Shown piece by piece: positions 1 to 7,549 of a DNA stretch of 39,599 nucleotides; within the stretch, counting starts at the first letter, position 1; each line of letters begins with the position of its first letter. The position numbers and the translations under genes are program-made. The notes under the pieces were generated by a model that worked only from the letters and a program-made list of their open reading frames with translations, was not told the DNA's origin and made no database searches. The stretch lies in contig CAIPPE010000203.1 in NCBI GenBank assembly GCA_903866825.1, forward strand, positions 1 to 39,599. The letters are read 5' to 3'. The DNA is from an uncultured Methylococcaceae bacterium. GTDB lineage: Bacteria; Pseudomonadota; Gammaproteobacteria; Methylococcales; Methylomonadaceae.

Positions 1-1
1 C

Positions 2-136
2 AGAACAGAATCTTATGCGCTGGCTTATTGTCGAATATCGAGCTATCTACAAACGATGGCGAACAAAGGATACAACCCACTAATAGCGATTCAAATAGCA
101 TTGGCTGGCGAATTAGACTTGTCTGGGGGAGAGTAG
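2..136 (+). pseudogene. IS66-family transposase (TnpC), C-terminal end only
   Basis: An open frame enters from the window edge and ends at TAG 134-136, giving 44 residues. The part reading YCRISSYLQTMANKGYNPL, followed by ALAGEL, resembles the extreme C-terminus of IS66 TnpC transposases, where a CRIRSYI-type helix precedes a Lys-Gln-Gly-x-N turn and a short tail. The rest of the gene lies outside the window, so it may be intact upstream or only a remnant. It marks this end of the window as a mobile-element neighbourhood. The family call rests on remembered motif similarity, not on a search. Confidence 0.5.
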
Positions 137-475
137 TTACTATTGATGGATGCTTGATTTGCCCTTGGCGTTTTTCAATCGCCGAGGGTTCCGGGTGGTT
201 TGTAGGCCTCTGGAGGGGGTTCTTCCACAGGACCCCTATCTGCCGAAATTACCTGTTTAATTTCTAATGCTCCGGTGTAGGCTATTGAGCGTTGGCTTGA
301 TCGTATTATTGATGCTCAACAATTATCTGACATATTCAAAGACGATTTATGAAGCGGTGTGTGTGGGGACAGGTTCTCGGCATTCTACATCCCCGATTTT
401 AAGTTTACACTGAATCTCTTGACCCTCTTATTTCAATTCAAACTCCAGATAGATTATCTTTTTGATTTCTTGACG
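137..475. other. gene-poor stretch with a possible nuclease-tail remnant
   Basis: No convincing gene is visible. On the plus strand, 281-352 reads AIERWLDRIIDAQQLSDIF and then stops. It is preceded immediately by an in-frame TAG. The phrase resembles the C-terminal tail of Rpn/DUF4351-type nuclease proteins, so this may be a scrap of such a gene. The longer frames here are rich in Phe, Leu and Ile and look like non-coding translation. Confidence 0.25.
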
Positions 476-658
476 CTACAACTTTGTTTTTTCATATTCC
501 ATTTCTCCATTTCTATTGATAGCTCCACACCCTTGCTTCCATTGCAAGTATTGATAATCATAATCAAAAATATTTAAGGCAAATTCATCCTTAACCCCAT
601 AATAAAGATCATTAGTGATTTTCCCTTTTTTTAACTCCATGAAGTCTGGAATTGGCAT
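476..658 (-). CDS. small hypothetical protein (60 aa)
   Basis: A short minus-strand frame begins at MPIPDFMELKKGK, 8 bases after the stop of the 234-codon ORF upstream, and ends at 476. The frame stays open back to 754, but that part overlaps the neighbouring gene, so the ATG at 658 is the more economical start. The protein is hydrophilic and aromatic (DYDYQYLQW), with no signal peptide, membrane segment or motif I recognise. Its tight spacing suggests co-transcription with the upstream ORF. An immunity or effector partner is conceivable given the accessory setting, but nothing in the sequence establishes it. It may also be non-coding. Confidence 0.35.
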   Translation of the reverse strand: MPIPDFMELKKGKITNDLYYGVKDEFALNIFDYDYQYLQWKQGCGAINRNGEMEYEKTKL

Positions 659-665
659 AGGTTTT

Positions 666-1370
666 TTATTTGTTTTGCTTGTATAATTTATCAACAAAGA
701 TGGCAGCATCACTTTGTGTTGAAAAGCACACATAGTAATAAGGCACGTAGTCATGCCGATTCTTGTAGCTGGCTAAAATAGGCTTATCATCTAAATAAAT
801 CCCATAATAATCTTTATATTCTGATCTAGGCAATACTGTTGCAGAAATTGTTTTAGTACCAGAGATGAATTCAACCTTATCATCAGCTTCTTCAATTGTA
901 TCACCACCATCCTTAACGTGACGGAGAACATAATCAAGCGTTACGTTAGCCTTTATATTATTTTGAATACTGGGCGGAGTAATTATTTTATATACTATTT
1001 CGTTTTTCAAGAAAGATATCATAGTTAATTTGCAAGCTTTCTCTGGCTTAATATTTAGACAATTTGTGCCAACAGAGAGCGAAACATTTATGACTGTATT
1101 TCCAGTTAACGGCAAACCATTTTGGACGCTATGTTTTTGAACCTTTAATGTATCTGCATGCCCATAGCATTTATGCTTCTCTTCATTATCTTCATTTCTG
1201 TTTTTTATTTTAGATTTATCTTTACAACTCAGCGAGACAGTCAATTGTTCTACAGGCAGAAAGACGCTTAGATTTTTTGTTATGGTATTGTTTTCTGTTG
1301 AATTAGCTGATACTTGTCCAACTTTGTGTAAAATCGCAACATTTTCCAGTACGTTCACATACTTTCTCAA
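666..1370 (-). CDS. hypothetical protein (234 aa), unrecognised
   Basis: This is an uninterrupted minus-strand frame. The first start codon is TTG at 1370, with only a poor AGAG-like ribosome site, so the true start is uncertain. The N-terminal third is Asn/Lys/Ser-rich. The C-terminal half looks globular, with alternating beta-like segments (KTISATVLPRSEY, YYGIYLDDKPILASY) and an ending YYYVCFSTQSDAAIFVDKL. There is no obvious signal peptide or membrane span. Codon use is more AT-rich than in the housekeeping genes, consistent with acquired DNA beside the IS66 fragment. I do not recognise the family. It could be a secreted-effector-type or phage-defence accessory gene, but no motif supports either. 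Confidence 0.45.
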   Translation of the reverse strand: MRKYVNVLENVAILHKVGQVSANSTENNTITKNLSVFLPVEQLTVSLSCKDKSKIKNRNEDNEEKHKCYGHADTLKVQKHSVQNGLPLTGNTVINVSLSVGTNCLNIKPEKACKLTMISFLKNEIVYKIITPPSIQNNIKANVTLDYVLRHVKDGGDTIEEADDKVEFISGTKTISATVLPRSEYKDYYGIYLDDKPILASYKNRHDYVPYYYVCFSTQSDAAIFVDKLYKQNK

Positions 1371-1990
1371 TTCTCTATTTCTAGCAGGATTAGGACGGAA
1401 ACTATTTATAGCTATTATTAATAAATTAGTTTAAAGATTCAACACAATAGCAACTGACCCTAATACTGCTACCGCAAATCTAATACATAAATATCATAGG
1501 CTTGAGCATGCCTCGATTTTTGGCGTGTTCAATAAAGGAAAAGGTTTTAGTCGACGTTTGACAGCTCTCGGCTGGTTCTTTCGTTTTAAATAGCAGGGTA
1601 GAGTAAACTTAAATATAAATTTATTCTGAAGCCTACGCCCCAATTCTTAGAAACTCCAACGTATTCATTGTTCGGTAGCAAATTTTTTATACAGGCCAGT
1701 TCGGTAACTCCAAACCGATTAAATCCGGCGTATATCCAAATACCCTCTTTCTTCTGTATAACGCATCATTAAACACCATCAAGCGCAAAGCAAAATCGCC
1801 TGATAATACCCATTCATAAAATAAACAATATTTACCTTGCAGTTTATGTAAATAAGCCTATAGTTCTTGATAAGCCACCTGAATTAGCAATTAATTCTGT
1901 GAATGTACTGGGTAAGCTCTCCTAAATGGCGCTCTGCAACTACGAGCTAGTGTTCGGCAATGATAAATAAATTCCAGCAATTAAAGTTGA
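1371..1990. other. intergenic region, no intact gene
   Basis: About 620 bases lack a credible complete gene. Short coding-like scraps occur. On the plus strand near 1500-1593 there is a phrase ending SRRLTALGWFFRFK before a stop. On the minus strand across roughly 1690-1860 there is a phrase containing ALYRRKRVFGYTPDLIGLEL with stops on both sides. They look like decayed genes, but I cannot name the parents. The last ~60 bases may hold very degenerate in-phase units of the array that starts at 1991. Confidence 0.4.
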
Positions 1991-2347
1991 CTACTTGAAA
2001 CACCTGTTGAATGAGTTCAGCAACCCGGCCAATTACTTGGCCTATCTGGCGAACTCACTCAGTGACTCAAAAAGTGACTCAAAACACCTGCTGGTCCACT
2101 GAGAAAACATTTTAGACTGCTTCAAAAATCCAGTGGAGTGCTGGAGGATCACTCGTATTCTTTTTGTTAAATCGGCCCAGTGCTTAAACAAAACTTTGCA
2201 TTACTTTAAAAGGTTGGGCAAGTAGTTCAACGTATTTCTACAATAATCCACTGACCTTTTGTAGCTTTCAAGTGATCTTTTGCAGTACTTCAGCGTAAAG
2301 TGCCAGTACTCCACCGCATTTTTACACCAGTCAAAAGTCATTATTTT
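1991..2347. repeat. degenerate tandem array, 17 units with an exact 21-bp phase
   Basis: Cutting the plus strand every 21 bases from 1991 (2012, 2033, and so on to 2327) gives 17 units with no insertion or deletion. In the plus-strand register position 5 is T in 16 of 17 units, position 8 is A in 14 and position 21 is A in 13. Positions 2-6 approximate TACTT. No two units are identical, so this is an old or functionally constrained repeat rather than a recent duplication. Two further units at 2390 and 2411 are roughly in phase, which would extend the array to 2431 with weak units between. Read on the minus strand the units encode imperfect heptads such as CKRSLES, YKRSVDY and CRNTLNY, broken by stops. 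21 bp is two DNA helical turns and also seven codons. The function is unknown. Confidence 0.75.
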
Positions 2348-2430
2348 TATAGAGTCATGACTTTCTAGCGCCAAATTAAGATTGTTTAAACAGTGCTAAA
2401 GAGTGGGACAGTGATCAATCGTTTTGGCTA

Positions 2431-2494
2431 GATGCAGAGTTCTAATAGCGGGAAGCTAAAAAATCATTGCAGACAGTTCATAAAGTTCTGCATC
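2431..2494. repeat. 8-bp inverted repeat ahead of the Fn3-like gene
   Basis: GATGCAGA at 2431-2438 is matched by its exact reverse complement TCTGCATC at 2487-2494, enclosing 48 bases. It lies between the 21-bp array and the start codon at 2533 and could close a folded leader RNA or be an operator pair. There is no T tract, so it does not look like a terminator. An 8-bp match with a long loop can occur by chance. Confidence 0.3.
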
Positions 2495-2532
2495 ACGTTT
2501 TAATTTGATCTTTAGAAAGGAACTAAATTATT

Positions 2533-3222
2533 ATGAGTACAACTACATTTATGCCGAGTACTGACAGTGGTAAGGCAGACTTGCTGAACCATCTGACAAT
2601 CGCCTTGCCACCTTATGCTAACTTGCTGAATATTTCTGGAGAGGAGTTGGCCATACTAAATGATGATACCATCAGCTTTAGTTATACCATTCAAAGTGCT
2701 GGTGATATGCAAGCCTGCTCTAAAAGCTGGACGGCTTTTAAAAATCAGCTGCGTGATGGCGCAAGTGGTTCAATGAGTTTTCCAAAAACACCTACAGCGA
2801 TTCAACCCGTTCCATCGGTTGTTAACGAGGGAGTTGTACCTCGATTATCGGCGTTAGTTGGACAGATTAAAGCCAATAAAAATTACACGGATGCCATTGG
2901 CAAAGACCTATGGTTAATCGGTACGGCACAAATTATTGATCCGAGCACCTGGAAACCTATTTTAAGTATCCAGAATCAAGCCGGACATCCGATTATATGC
3001 TGGACAAAAGGCAGAGCAGCCGCGATAGAAATTTGGGTAGATCGGGGTGATGGCAATAATTTTACACACTTAGCCATTAATACCGAACCCAACACCACCG
3101 ACAAATACCTTCTCCCTGTAACAGGCAACAGCCAGGTCTGGAAGTATAAAGCCATCTACTTATTACATGATGAACAGGTGGGGCAGTGGAGTGATGTAAT
3201 AAGTGTATCGGTGGGAGGGTAA
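2533..3222 (+). CDS. fibronectin-III-like domain protein of unknown function (229 aa)
   Basis: The N-terminal ~130 residues look largely helical (SKADLLNHLTIALPPYANLL-like amphipathic stretches, and later RLSALVGQIKANKNYTDAIG). The C-terminal ~90 residues look like an Fn3-type beta sandwich, with IICWTKGRAAAIEIWVDRG, a KYKAIYLL strand and the closing WSDVISVSVGG. This helical-bundle plus Fn3 layout matches a family of uncharacterised bacterial proteins known to me only by architecture. No signal peptide or membrane segment is visible, so it is probably cytoplasmic or released by an unknown route. AAAGGA at 2516-2521 is a plausible ribosome site 11 bases before ATG. The gene stands alone, with the 21-bp array upstream and a hairpin terminator downstream. 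Alternatives include a phage-like or scaffold protein. Confidence 0.7.
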   Translation: MSTTTFMPSTDSGKADLLNHLTIALPPYANLLNISGEELAILNDDTISFSYTIQSAGDMQACSKSWTAFKNQLRDGASGSMSFPKTPTAIQPVPSVVNEGVVPRLSALVGQIKANKNYTDAIGKDLWLIGTAQIIDPSTWKPILSIQNQAGHPIICWTKGRAAAIEIWVDRGDGNNFTHLAINTEPNTTDKYLLPVTGNSQVWKYKAIYLLHDEQVGQWSDVISVSVGG

Positions 3223-3269
3223 TTCGGAAAATACACGGGTTTTGATCATTACTTAATTTAACTATTATA

Positions 3270-3303
3270 AAATGTAGAGATAGGTCGCGGTCTTTACATT
3301 TTT
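3270..3303. terminator. Rho-independent terminator, possibly bidirectional
   Basis: AAATGTAGAGA (3270-3280) pairs with TCTTTACATTT (3291-3301) through one G-U pair, around a 10-base loop, and is followed by further T residues. It lies between the convergent ends of the Fn3-like gene and the DUF5615 gene, so it could serve both. Confidence 0.7.
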
Positions 3304-3309
3304 CAATTG

Positions 3310-3642
3310 TCAGGTGATACGAATAAATGAAACACCATCGTTTTCATAAAACGTTGTTATTAGTGCCACTTTATTTCTCAGTATCAATTGAATTTGTCTG
3401 TTGGTGCTGTTACCACATTTTATTAAAATTACTTTGGGTGGATGTCCGTATAAAATGCTTTTTTCGTAGAAATCAGAATCCTTACTTACGATCATAAAGC
3501 TATTTTCTTTGGCATAACGCCAAACGTCATCATCGGAATCGCCACCTAACCCAATCCGGTCAACATGAGCGGAATCGGGAAAAACATCCGCCAAGGCTAT
3601 AACCATTTTAGGTGATAGATTTTCATCAAATAACAATTTCAT
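3310..3642 (-). CDS. DUF5615 PIN-like protein, probable toxin of a TA pair
   Basis: This 110-residue protein begins KLLFDENLSPK and carries VSKDSDFYEK in the middle. The early Asp-Glu-Asn and the later Asp-Ser-Asp-Phe are the acidic clusters typical of the DUF5615 / Mut7-C-like PIN fold, which is thought to act as a ribonuclease. Its ATG overlaps the stop of the DUF433 gene by 4 bases (ATGA), so the two are translationally coupled. This order, small DUF433 gene first and DUF5615 second, is a recurrent putative toxin-antitoxin pairing. Length and motifs appear intact. Toxicity is inferred from family and context only. Confidence 0.8.
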   Translation of the reverse strand: MKLLFDENLSPKMVIALADVFPDSAHVDRIGLGGDSDDDVWRYAKENSFMIVSKDSDFYEKSILYGHPPKVILIKCGNSTNRQIQLILRNKVALITTFYENDGVSFIRIT

Positions 3643-3869
3643 CCGGTAATAACTCGGGTATGACGTTCTCTATCGGCGGCATAAGAAAAACACGCTCTAA
3701 TATCATCCTGAGTTAAATAATCATAATCTTCTAAAATTTCTTGTTCTGTCATGCCAGCGGCAAAACAATCGAGAATATCGTCGACGGTAATGCGCAAACC
3801 CCTAATACAGGGTTTTCCGCTACGTTTTCCGGGTTCAATGGTGATAATGTTGTGATAGTCAATGTTCAT
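3639..3869 (-). CDS. DUF433 domain protein, probable antitoxin
   Basis: The 76-residue protein reads IEPGKRSGKPCIRGLRITV near its start, the signature of DUF433. It continues with MTEQEILEDYDYLTQDDIRA, a helix-turn-helix-like segment that resembles a winged or RHH-like DNA-binding fold. It heads a two-gene unit with the DUF5615 gene and would be expected to bind that partner and autoregulate. Divergently upstream (3870-4057) is AT-rich intergenic DNA that separates it from the tgt promoter. The family is confident; the antitoxin role is inferred from the pairing. Confidence 0.8.
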   Translation of the reverse strand: MNIDYHNIITIEPGKRSGKPCIRGLRITVDDILDCFAAGMTEQEILEDYDYLTQDDIRACFSYAADRERHTRVITG

Positions 3870-4057
3870 AGCTTGCTGATAGCGAGGCTGTTACCCCATT
3901 TTGCGACTTGCATAGTCAGATCCTGTGCATATTGATATACAAAACTTATTATATATCCGTAATTCATAAGCACACCATGCTTAATTTTGACGTAGGGTTA
4001 ATGGTAGTTTAGATGCTTTAGTTAATCATAGTTTTCTGTTTGATAAATAAAGCAGTG

Positions 4058-4087
4058 TTGCGCAATTGCCTAAAAAGGCAGGATAAT
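4058..4087 (+). promoter_or_regulatory. candidate sigma-70 promoter for tgt-yajC-secDF
   Basis: TTGCGC at 4058-4063 and GATAAT at 4082-4087 are spaced by 18 bases and end 33 bases before the tgt ATG. A small inverted repeat, TGCCT/AGGCA, lies in the spacer. The -35 element is imperfect, so the call is moderate. Confidence 0.45.
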
Positions 4088-4099
4088 CTGCACCCTTGA

Positions 4100-5236
<1,137 letters not shown>

Positions 5237-5277
5237 TGGCGAAATTTTTTAAAATACAATAATAACTGAGGATAATT

Positions 5278-5631
5278 ATGAGTTTTTTTATTTCTGACGC
5301 ATTAGCGGCAGCGCCCGCAGCAGCACAACCAGGCATTGAAGGCATGCTGTTTCCACTCGGTATTTTAGCGTTTTTTTACTTTTTATTTTTACGTCCTCAA
5401 TCAAAACGTACTAAAGAAAAGAAGCAGATGATTGCTGCGCTGGGTAAAGGGGTGGAAGTCGTTACTTCGGGTGGTATTTTAGGTAAGGTCGTTGATCTGG
5501 ATGATAACTTTGTAAAACTTGAAGTGAGTGAAAATTCGTTTATTCAAGTACAGCGTCAAAGCATTGAGAGCATGATGCCTAAAGGAACTTATAAAGCAAT
5601 CACTAAAAAAGTAACTATTAATAAAGCTTAA
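5278..5631 (+). CDS. yajC: preprotein translocase accessory subunit YajC
   Basis: A single-span inner-membrane partner of SecDF that joins the holotranslocon. The 117-residue protein has an Ala-rich N-terminal leader, one transmembrane helix (GILAFFYFLFLRPQ) ending in the diagnostic FLRPQ, and then a basic cytoplasmic domain with VTSGGILGKVV. Length is close to the family norm. A GAGG-type ribosome site precedes the ATG (ctgaggataatt). It lies 41 bases after tgt and 70 bases before secD, consistent with one operon. Confidence 0.97.
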   Translation: MSFFISDALAAAPAAAQPGIEGMLFPLGILAFFYFLFLRPQSKRTKEKKQMIAALGKGVEVVTSGGILGKVVDLDDNFVKLEVSENSFIQVQRQSIESMMPKGTYKAITKKVTINKA

Positions 5632-5701
5632 TGTGATAGCGCGAAGCAGAGTCAAAGCAATGGACTTTGTTTGGAGCGCAGTTTAATTATTGGAATAACA
5701 C

Positions 5702-7549
5702 ATGCAAAACCATTATCCACTTTGGAAAAATTTATTAGTTCTGATTATTTTTGGTATCGGAATTATTTACTCATTACCTAATTTGTACGGCGATGACCCT
5801 TCCGTTCAGGTGTCATCAACCCAAGCGACTAATATTACACAAGATCAATCAAATCAGATCGAGTCTGATATTAAAGCATCGGGTGTGCCTGTAAAAGCGT
5901 TTGAGTTTAAAGACGGTCGTATTTTAGCGCGATTTACCAATACCGATGATCAGCTTAAAGTGGCTGATTTATTAAGAGATAAAATGGGTAGCAATTATAC
6001 GGTTGCTCTAAATCTGGCGCCAACCACACCGACCTGGTTACGTGCTTTAGGTGCACAGGCTATGTATCTTGGTTTGGACTTACGCGGAGGTGTGCATTTT
6101 CTAATGGAAGTGGATATGGATGCAGCGGTAAAGCAGGCTGAAGACCGTAATATAGATGATATTCGTTTAGCGTTAAGAAATGCAAAATTACGCTATCAAA
6201 CGGTTGCAAAAGATAATGGCTTTTTTAAAGTCACGTTAAAGTCTGCAGAAGATAAGACAGAAATTTTGACTGCTTTAGATAAAGATTTTCATAATCTTGA
6301 GATTACTGAACCAGAAGCACAGGATCAAATCTGGTTAAAATTATCGGATAAAGAAATCCGTGAAATCAAGAAATTTGCTGTAGCGCAAAACATGACCACG
6401 TTACGTAATCGTGTTAATGAATTAGGGGTGGCAGAGCCGGTTATTCAGCAACAAGGTGAAAACCGTATCATGGTGCAATTGCCTGGCGTACAGGATACCA
6501 CCAGAGCGAAAGAAATTTTGGGTACGACAGCGACGCTGGAGTATCGCTTAGTTGATGTTGAGCATGACGTTCAACAAGCTGTATCAGGACATGTGCCCGT
6601 AGGCAGTCGTTTATATAATGACAGAAGTGGGAATCCAATCCTTTTAGATCGTCGGGTTATTGTTACTGGTGATCAAATCGTGGATGCGTCTTCTGGTCAG
6701 GATCAGGATGGCCGGCCTTCGGTTAATATTTCCTTGAATGGCGTGGGTGCAGCAAAGATGGCTAAAACTACACAAGTGAGTGTAGGGAAGCCAATGGCTG
6801 TTGTATTCATTGAATATAAGGTAGAAACAAAAATAGTGGATGGTCAAAAAGTCCGTCACAAAGAGAAAGTAGAAAAAGTGATTAACGTTGCGACGATACA
6901 AGGTGCATTTAGTAAGCGTTTCCAAACGACTGGCTTGGATAGTCCGCAAGAAGCCAGAAATTTATCGTTGTTATTGAGAGCGGGAGCTTTAGCGGCGCCA
7001 GTTGATATTGTTGAAGAACGTACAGTCGGTCCTAGTTTAGGACAAGATAACATTGATAAGGGCATGTTATCGTTTGTGGTGGGTTTTGCCTTGGTTGTAT
7101 TGTTTATGGCGGTTTATTATCGTCTTTTTGGCGTGATAGCCAATTTTGCGTTAGCTTTTAACGTGGTGATTGTGGTCGCTATTCTGTCTATGTTGCAAGC
7201 AACGTTAACATTGCCGGGTATTGCAGGGATTATCTTGACGGTAGGTATGTCGGTTGATGCTAACGTATTGATTTTTGAGCGTATCAAAGAAGAACTCAAA
7301 CATGGCATAACACCGCAGGCGGCTATTTTTATTGGTTACGATAAAGCCTTTGCAACCATTCTTGACTCTCACTTTACCAACCTTGTCGTGGCGGTAGTTT
7401 TGTTTGCTTTTGGTACCGGTTCAGTAAAAGGTTTCGCGGTAACGCTGATTATCGGGATTTTATCCTCTATGTTTACAGCGATTACGGGAACGCGGATGGT
7501 TATTAACTGGATCTATGGCAATCGTAGAGTTGAGAAGCTATCTATATAG
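5702..7549 (+). CDS. secD: protein translocase subunit SecD
   Basis: Proton-motive-force-driven component that helps pull and release exported proteins on the periplasmic side, in complex with SecF and YajC. The 615 residues match E. coli SecD. An N-terminal transmembrane helix follows HYPLWKNLLVLIIFGIGI. The large periplasmic P1 domain contains YLGLDLRGGVHFLMEVD and MTTLRNRVNELGVAEP. The C-terminal RND-like bundle contains the conserved SVDANVLIFERIKEEL. No break or oddity is visible. The gene sits between yajC and secF on the same strand. Confidence 0.98.
   Translation: MQNHYPLWKNLLVLIIFGIGIIYSLPNLYGDDPSVQVSSTQATNITQDQSNQIESDIKASGVPVKAFEFKDGRILARFTNTDDQLKVADLLRDKMGSNYTVALNLAPTTPTWLRALGAQAMYLGLDLRGGVHFLMEVDMDAAVKQAEDRNIDDIRLALRNAKLRYQTVAKDNGFFKVTLKSAEDKTEILTALDKDFHNLEITEPEAQDQIWLKLSDKEIREIKKFAVAQNMTTLRNRVNELGVAEPVIQQQGENRIMVQLPGVQDTTRAKEILGTTATLEYRLVDVEHDVQQAVSGHVPVGSRLYNDRSGNPILLDRRVIVTGDQIVDASSGQDQDGRPSVNISLNGVGAAKMAKTTQVSVGKPMAVVFIEYKVETKIVDGQKVRHKEKVEKVINVATIQGAFSKRFQTTGLDSPQEARNLSLLLRAGALAAPVDIVEERTVGPSLGQDNIDKGMLSFVVGFALVVLFMAVYYRLFGVIANFALAFNVVIVVAILSMLQATLTLPGIAGIILTVGMSVDANVLIFERIKEELKHGITPQAAIFIGYDKAFATILDSHFTNLVVAVVLFAFGTGSVKGFAVTLIIGILSSMFTAITGTRMVINWIYGNRRVEKLSI

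Follow-up and report, generated by a model that had tools for sequence, protein, structure and literature searches.

A phased 21-bp array recurring before relatives of an uncharacterised FN3-type gene suggests an undescribed protein-binding DNA scaffold

The locus considered here raises the question of what a long run of DNA units can be when the units keep a 21-bp phase while their sequences differ widely from one another. The window, i.e., the whole stretch of 39,599 nucleotides from an uncultured Methylococcaceae bacterium that was analysed, contains such a run, which the original prediction had described as 17 consecutive units aligning without any gap. All of these units, together with the base counts given for them, are found as described: T is present at position 5 in 16/17 units, A at position 8 in 14/17 and A at position 21 in 13/17, with a mean pairwise identity among the 17 units of 0.39. 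The comparison with shuffled sequence that had been proposed as a check gives a lag-21 identity of 0.408 over 1991-2347 and of 0.386 over 1991-2431, where the shuffles give 0.259 ± 0.022 and 0/1000 of them reach 0.386. Over the latter interval, lags 42, 63, 84 and 105 are each reached by 0/1000 shuffles, while lag 20 is reached by 30/1000 and lag 22 by 268/1000. The array is present at 1991-2431, where it had been placed, but its true extent by the lag-21 signal is longer (Table 1), and homologous copies reach the ribosome-binding site of the gene. It is noted that the window array has one extra base at 2166 relative to 12/12 other copies and one at 2376 relative to 11/11 copies covering that site; presumably a −1 step near 2340 cancels the extra base at 2376, and it is for this reason that the phase seems intact in the units at 2390 and 2411. 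Tandem Repeats Finder lists no 21-bp array at this place.

Table 1. Positions of the array and of the features next to it in the window
Feature	Position	Strand	Remark
21-bp phased array, core	1991..2347	.	17 gap-free 21-bp units
21-bp phased array, full, including degenerate 3' part	1970..2494 (approximate)	.	lag-21 signal
Gene of uncharacterised 229-aa protein, constant neighbour of arrays	2533..3222	+	helical N-terminal part, FN3-like C-terminal part
Promoter-like box TTGCAG-N16-TATAGT, 5' edge of array	1837..1864	+	candidate from sequence; kept in most copies reaching it
Short conserved hairpin (TGCAGAC...GTTCTGCA), array-gene interval	2468..2492	+	one of five consensus-fold helices
Ribosome-binding-site-like AAAGGA	2516..2521	+	read from sequence

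The array is flanked by a minus-strand ORF (666-1370) and by the plus-strand ORF of the 229-aa protein, and across loci the distance from array to ATG is about 20 to 475 bp. For the 229-aa protein nothing of weight is found in Pfam, PHROGs or NCBIfam, and for 30 family members compared with Pfam the best E-value is 0.04 (two families, one member each), with no FN3 hit among the 30. The best match of its sequence to a solved structure, at an E-value of 0.022, is a coiled coil. The structure model (mean pLDDT 82, pTM 0.50) has a helical N-terminal part, and its C-terminal part matches FN3-containing chains, among 50 listed, at E-values from 6.5e-5 to 8.4e-4 and with TM-scores by target up to 0.70, values that are to be read with the pTM of the model; we refer to the gene as FN3-type. 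Between this gene and the downstream gene, which we take to be tgt, adjacent DUF5615 (PIN-like) and DUF433 genes lie on the minus strand (3310-3869), presumably a toxin-antitoxin-like pair. A dispersed repeat of ~134 bp, distinct from the array, lies at about 1454-1588 and has 10 matches of 80-81% identity in one related complete genome, as well as matches of 69-83% and short pieces in several other genomes. In addition, a REP-like palindrome is located directly 3' of the FN3-type gene in the window (about 3274-3297) and at the loci L009, L052 and L055 (GTAGAGACAGGTCGCGACCTGTCTTTAC in L055), and a stretch similar to it is located upstream of tgt in L205.

A DNA search finds further copies of the array region, both elsewhere in the genome and in one closely related to it, with the longer matches being 73-81% identical. 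Three of the copies in the own genome carry the 229-aa gene (L009, L013 and L015), and six are array-only, having no 229-aa gene in the stretch examined (L010, L011, L012, L014, L016 and L017), where the contig of L014 ends inside the array and the gene could lie beyond it. One copy, next to what we take to be a radA-like gene, is common to two genomes (L012 and L019). In the array-only copies L010, L012 and L016 the similarity stops at about the AAAGGA. An alignment of thirteen copies spans about 690 bp and contains few 1-bp differences (L010, L012 and L014 covering the alignment only in part, L015 being without 41 bp, aligned as three gaps, and L011 without 20); the copies are 55-97% identical, with a median of 66%.

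In these thirteen copies the conservation depends on the phase within the unit (0/5000 permutations). With phase 1 at position 1991, the conservation peaks are at phase 5 (T, 0.93) and at phases 8 (A), 12 (A or T) and 21 (A), 0.87 each. The same dyad axis, at phases i+j=5, is given by the conservation profile (p 0.04) and by the base complementarity (0/20000): A21 is the mate of T5 and A8 the mate of T18 (T18 0.81), so that a core near TNNAGYRCTNNA recurs at 21-bp intervals, while phase 12 sits at the other dyad axis. It had been claimed that the units have almost no conserved identity. This holds only in part: the units of the window are 39% alike, but in the dispersed copies certain phases are conserved symmetrically about the dyad. 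Moreover, the unit consensus is different in other clades and often palindromic, as in L063 (ACTCAGCAAGCCTTGCTGAGC), L091 (ATCTAGCAACCATTGCTAGAC), L096 (ACGGCAGAATCATTCTGCCGC) and L164 (GTTCCCCAAGCATTGGGGAAC). Dyad symmetry of the unit is significant (p<0.05) in 17/38 arrays of a first set, with a combined p of 2e-14, from which 9/47 arrays had been left out (near-duplicates, and L108 for a 15-bp repeat), and in 10/23 arrays of a second set, with a combined p of 3e-9, which includes L189, a repeat of L096. The test is non-significant in the other 21/38 and 13/23 arrays, and for the window array alone p is 0.28.

The 47/59 upstream regions that pass the array caller, which was tuned on the same data, contain 679 steps, of which 635 measure 21 bp, 27 measure 20 bp, 3 measure 22 bp and 14 have other sizes; in the third set of family members described below, there are 274 steps of 21 bp, 5 of 20 bp, 2 of 22 bp and 3 of 23 bp. 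After de-duplication by hand the 20-bp steps still outnumber the 22-bp steps by 17 to 3 (p 0.003), with some of the 20-bp steps shared by descent. The strict phase of the original prediction holds for most steps, with exceptions in the occasional 20-bp steps of related copies and the two extra bases of the window array, and the selection on spacing that it had put forward is supported. Note also that, per substitution, arrays contain about one third as many non-unit indels as the sequence outside them, 8 per 909 versus 21 per 750 (Fisher p 0.004), as tallied by hand in 9/14 pairs, three of which share loci, with gaps at alignment edges left out. The high-information columns change more slowly in 13/14 pair comparisons, 6 of them at p<0.05, where the pairs share loci. 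Of the two meanings that had been offered for the period, two helical turns or seven codons, the former is supported, with the purine signal concentrated in the 10.5-bp harmonic (z 4.2) and the 21- and 7-bp periods depleted.

Comparable arrays at homologous loci with a constant neighbour gene, the search for which had been proposed as a check, are found. Relatives of the protein are present in 30/35 genus genomes searched and at 54 loci in GTDB contigs, the titles of which name Methylococcaceae, Methylobacter, Crenothrix, Methylumidiphilus, Gallionella, Nitrosomonadales, Thiodictyon, Verrucomicrobia and Limisphaerales bins; in a sample of 274 genomes of the class, they are present in 1/274, the genome of the window itself. 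With an array defined by an identity of at least 0.42 at lag 21 or 42 over 210 bp, 71/91 family members tested have an array upstream, or 70 without L108, a set 2 locus that reaches the threshold through a 15-bp repeat. Set 1 (close relatives) consists of 35/54 GTDB-contig loci that are full-length or nearly so and have upstream DNA, plus 4 own-genome loci, and gives 31/39; set 2 consists of 20 distant paralogs hand-picked from the matches listed in the genus search and gives 15/20; set 3 (further relatives) gives 25/32, made up of 21 full-length matches, among them L154 from the own genome, of which 15 reach the threshold, and 11 C-terminal matches with estimated gene starts, of which 10 do so. 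The threshold was picked after set 1 had been seen, and sets 2 and 3 are the fairer test; L161 and L167 were left out for their short upstream DNA (133 and 238 bp). Control lags of 18-20 and 22-24 and their doubles give 0-2 per set. In the background, 20 stretches of 20 kb (400 kb) from one genome, 4/260 windows reach 0.42 at lag 21 or 42, and 3 of these 4 read as coding coiled coils; this background is conservative, because its windows are 1.5 kb long while the upstream regions are 900 bp. The 20/91 upstream regions without an array at threshold count against the model proposed below, and the 91 loci are not independent, since L189 repeats L096, L111 repeats L089 and near-identical loci remain. 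The array-bearing bins are named Methylococcales, Gallionellales, Nitrosomonadales, Thiodictyon and Verrucomicrobia, where mis-binning is possible for the verrucomicrobial, Nitrosomonadales and Thiodictyon arrays, each of which comes from one bin. In a survey of 24 loci, in which the first 60 residues of neighbouring ORFs were read by eye, only the FN3-type gene is constant.

Some individual loci of the family are also noted here. In L187, L188 and L190, from Gallionellales and Nitrosomonadales bins, the units of the 21/42-bp array are nearly alike (identity 0.83 to 0.95), which suggests a recent expansion of units; these arrays precede distant members of the family by about 220-660 bp. L056, without a 21-bp array, has a 27/54-bp periodic stretch from 1156 to 862 bp upstream of the gene, and the region from −374 to −123 in L168 shows lag 41 (0.433) in place of 21 or 42, as would result from alternating steps of 21 and 20 bp.

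The sequence of the array goes with the clade of the protein and not with the genome. For 53 arrays, with ten others left out, the more identical the proteins are, the more similar is the array consensus (Mantel r 0.32 in pairs below 65% identity, 0/2000). Within the own genome, the array similarity is 0.61-0.91 inside the window's protein clade, with two further pairs at 0.54 and 0.57, while across clades it stays at the baseline of 0.15-0.36. Since own-genome arrays differ in this way between protein clades, one sequence-specific host factor for all arrays is unlikely; it is noted that co-inheritance alone could also produce the clade-tracking pattern. In the aligned parts of L063 and L086 the adjacent gene differs by 1.4% and the array by 17.8%, where the gene match of L086 is only 416 bp; gene conversion or an unusually fast change of the array are possible for this pair.

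The recurrence of the array before relatives of the gene suggests an undescribed protein-binding DNA scaffold. In the model that we propose, the array would be a cis-acting DNA element in which a dyad-symmetric site recurs in tandem at every 21 bp and successive dyad axes are separated by 10.5 bp. Because one site per 21 bp is one per two helical turns, all the sites would be on one face of the helix. A putative dimeric DNA-binding protein would probably assemble cooperatively on these sites, and we infer that it may do so as the protein filament that had been considered at the outset; the bound protein would probably control the expression of the adjacent FN3-type gene. This reading as a whole is plausible, though we stop somewhat short of expecting it to be right. 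What the computation establishes is the periodicity, the tie to the gene family, the lack of coding function, the conserved phase and dyad-related positions and the array sequence going with the protein clade; the binding protein and its effect go beyond this. Counting against the model are the array-only copies, the variable distance from array to ATG, the arrays in which the dyad test is non-significant, the fact that no binder was found and the FN3-type protein being unlike a DNA-binding protein by fold search.

It is useful to compare the array with known systems, of which iteron and operator arrays are the nearest. Phased operator arrays are known as a principle. Plasmid iterons and partition-site (parS/parC) arrays, with which PMC4980987 and PMC7671480 deal, lie next to rep/par genes. 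They resemble the present array in that their tandem sites follow one another at about two helical turns and precede a gene, and they probably keep proteins on a single face of the helix. That spacing is evident here from the step sizes given above. By contrast, no rep, par or ATPase gene was recognised by eye beside the 24 loci, and the array departs from iterons in this respect as far as the neighbours are readable by eye; it also differs from them in having no plasmid match, many matches per genome and more degenerate units. Ribbon-helix-helix operators such as those of Arc, Mnt, MetJ and omega are similar in having dyad-symmetric sites, as seen here across the window-clade copies and in the fractions of arrays given above, and the Arc operator is 21 bp; presumably its centre resembles the TAGAGTGCT of some units here, which is no more than a lead. 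These operators have one to a few sites, unlike the 8-29 units of the arrays here. BldC is reported to bind direct repeats as cooperative multimers (PMC5859096), and a cooperative protein multimer along repeats is what we would expect here as well, with the difference that the units here are often dyad-symmetric. A CRISPR array is likewise regular, but the present units are contiguous, with no identical repeats and no spacers, in agreement with the original prediction, and no cas gene was recognised by eye beside the 24 loci. REP/BIME repeats are also palindromic, dispersed and intergenic, but they are single palindromes, unlike long phased arrays tied to one gene family.

An alternative is that the array and the gene together form a mobile or selfish unit, in which the array is a recognition or maintenance site (centromere-, iteron- or end-like). 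The matches per genome, up to 16 in the genus and, if partial matches are counted, 2 to 27 in 8 other genomes, are consistent with this, as are the patchy spread over the 274 class genomes, the dispersed array-only copies and the fact that the array sequence travels with the protein clade. Moreover, there is no such element next to tgt in 5/5 relatives with about 1.4 kb upstream examined (0.4 kb in a sixth relative), where an element located farther upstream would have escaped notice; one of the five, L205, retains 63 bp matching the sequence that directly follows the gene in the window. However, the 24 loci show by eye no constant transposase or recombinase neighbour, there are no clear shared ends or terminal repeats, and no match is found in IMG/VR, phage or plasmid collections; we consider a mobile unit unlikely.

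It could also be supposed that the array acts as RNA, being a long 5' leader or a free RNA in which the 21-nt units fold or bind a partner. The putative promoter box at the 5' edge is present in most window-clade copies reaching it, including the array-only copies L011, L016 and L017 (it is altered in L014 and not seen in L010), and 18/33 arrays are more stable on the given strand than dinucleotide shuffles, with z below −3. Against arrays shuffled by column, z is below −4 in 3/28 arrays (L060, L070 and L075), with means of −1.3 and −1.2 on the two strands. These three arrays and the kept promoter-like box make transcription of the array possible, but low folding energies result largely from the palindromic units, and both strands fold, the antisense often more stably, as expected from palindromes. 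A conserved RNA fold is not supported. The consensus fold of the 13 copies (~690 nt) has 26 pairs in five helices at −9.5 kcal/mol with a covariation term of +0.12, 2 pairs in which both partners have changed and a single convincing hairpin, which immediately precedes the gene; there is no per-unit covariation in 31 arrays (mean z 0.04, several palindromic arrays being negative), and at dyad-paired positions G-T is not in excess of A-C mismatches (698 versus 782). In addition, Rfam gives no match above the gathering score over window positions 1-6000, where the single sub-threshold match at E≤1 (3545-3614) is outside the array, and promoter scores over 61 arrays show no general enrichment at the 5' edge (z 0.20±0.17, compared with −0.28±0.14 inside and 0.58±0.15 in the 3' spacer). 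An RNA function is thus quite unlikely.

An ordinary minisatellite or satellite, expanded by slippage and decaying neutrally, would explain that some arrays are very homogeneous (lag-21 identity 0.93 in L187), that whole-unit gains and losses of 21 and 42 bp occur and that in most pairs the adjacent gene changes no faster than the array. The window array lacks the high unit identity that recent duplication would leave, as seen in some relatives; its units are little alike, yet thirteen copies keep the register and the conserved phases, which agrees with the earlier view that this is unlike a recent satellite. Since the rarity of non-unit indels inside arrays and the association with one gene family also stand against it, we regard this explanation as improbable. 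Phased intrinsic curvature, in which the 21-bp period would bend the DNA in one plane with no specific binder, fits the period of two helical turns and the excess of 20-bp over 22-bp steps (27 versus 3), but at 10.5 bp the predicted roll has z 1.5, WW z −0.8 and AA/TT z 1.4, none of them significant, and the most conserved positions form the dyad core rather than A-tracts, making it very improbable. Finally, a relic or active heptad-repeat coding sequence, the seven-codon option, has in its favour the period itself and the long open frames with heptad-like peptides in strong arrays such as L062, L068 and L091, but it is hardly credible, being opposed by at least 4 stops per 119 codons in each of the six frames of the window array, by the 20-bp steps, which break the frame, and by even substitutions over codon positions in orthologous or paralogous pairs (L062 had no pair): 8,12,8 in the array versus 2,3,37 in the adjacent gene for L068/L076, 39,39,40 versus 37,20,77 for L058/L060 and 26,30,22 versus 2,0,4 for L063/L086.

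Returning to the protein-binding scaffold, a wider and more doubtful proposal can be made, namely that the array is inherited together with the FN3-type gene, the two making up a genetic unit of a new class. Its DNA would be a self-matched scaffold with a dyad site at every two turns, the sequence of which may drift while phase and symmetry persist. The partner recognising it would be specific to the clade and may be the encoded protein, alone or in a complex. Such units would occur in bins of two bacterial phyla, where a single genome has up to 27 family matches. Literature searches at the level of abstracts gave no description of an array that is long, drifts fast, is often dyad-symmetric and goes with a single uncharacterised gene family in bins of two phyla. 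Elements selected mainly for phase and symmetry would be missed by ordinary homology searches. If the scaffold reading is right, a large uncharacterised bacterial gene family carries a long non-coding DNA module that is selected for helical phase and dyad symmetry more than for sequence. The module would then provide a clean test of how far spacing defines a functional protein-DNA array, and the array would offer a way to approach what the FN3-type family does.
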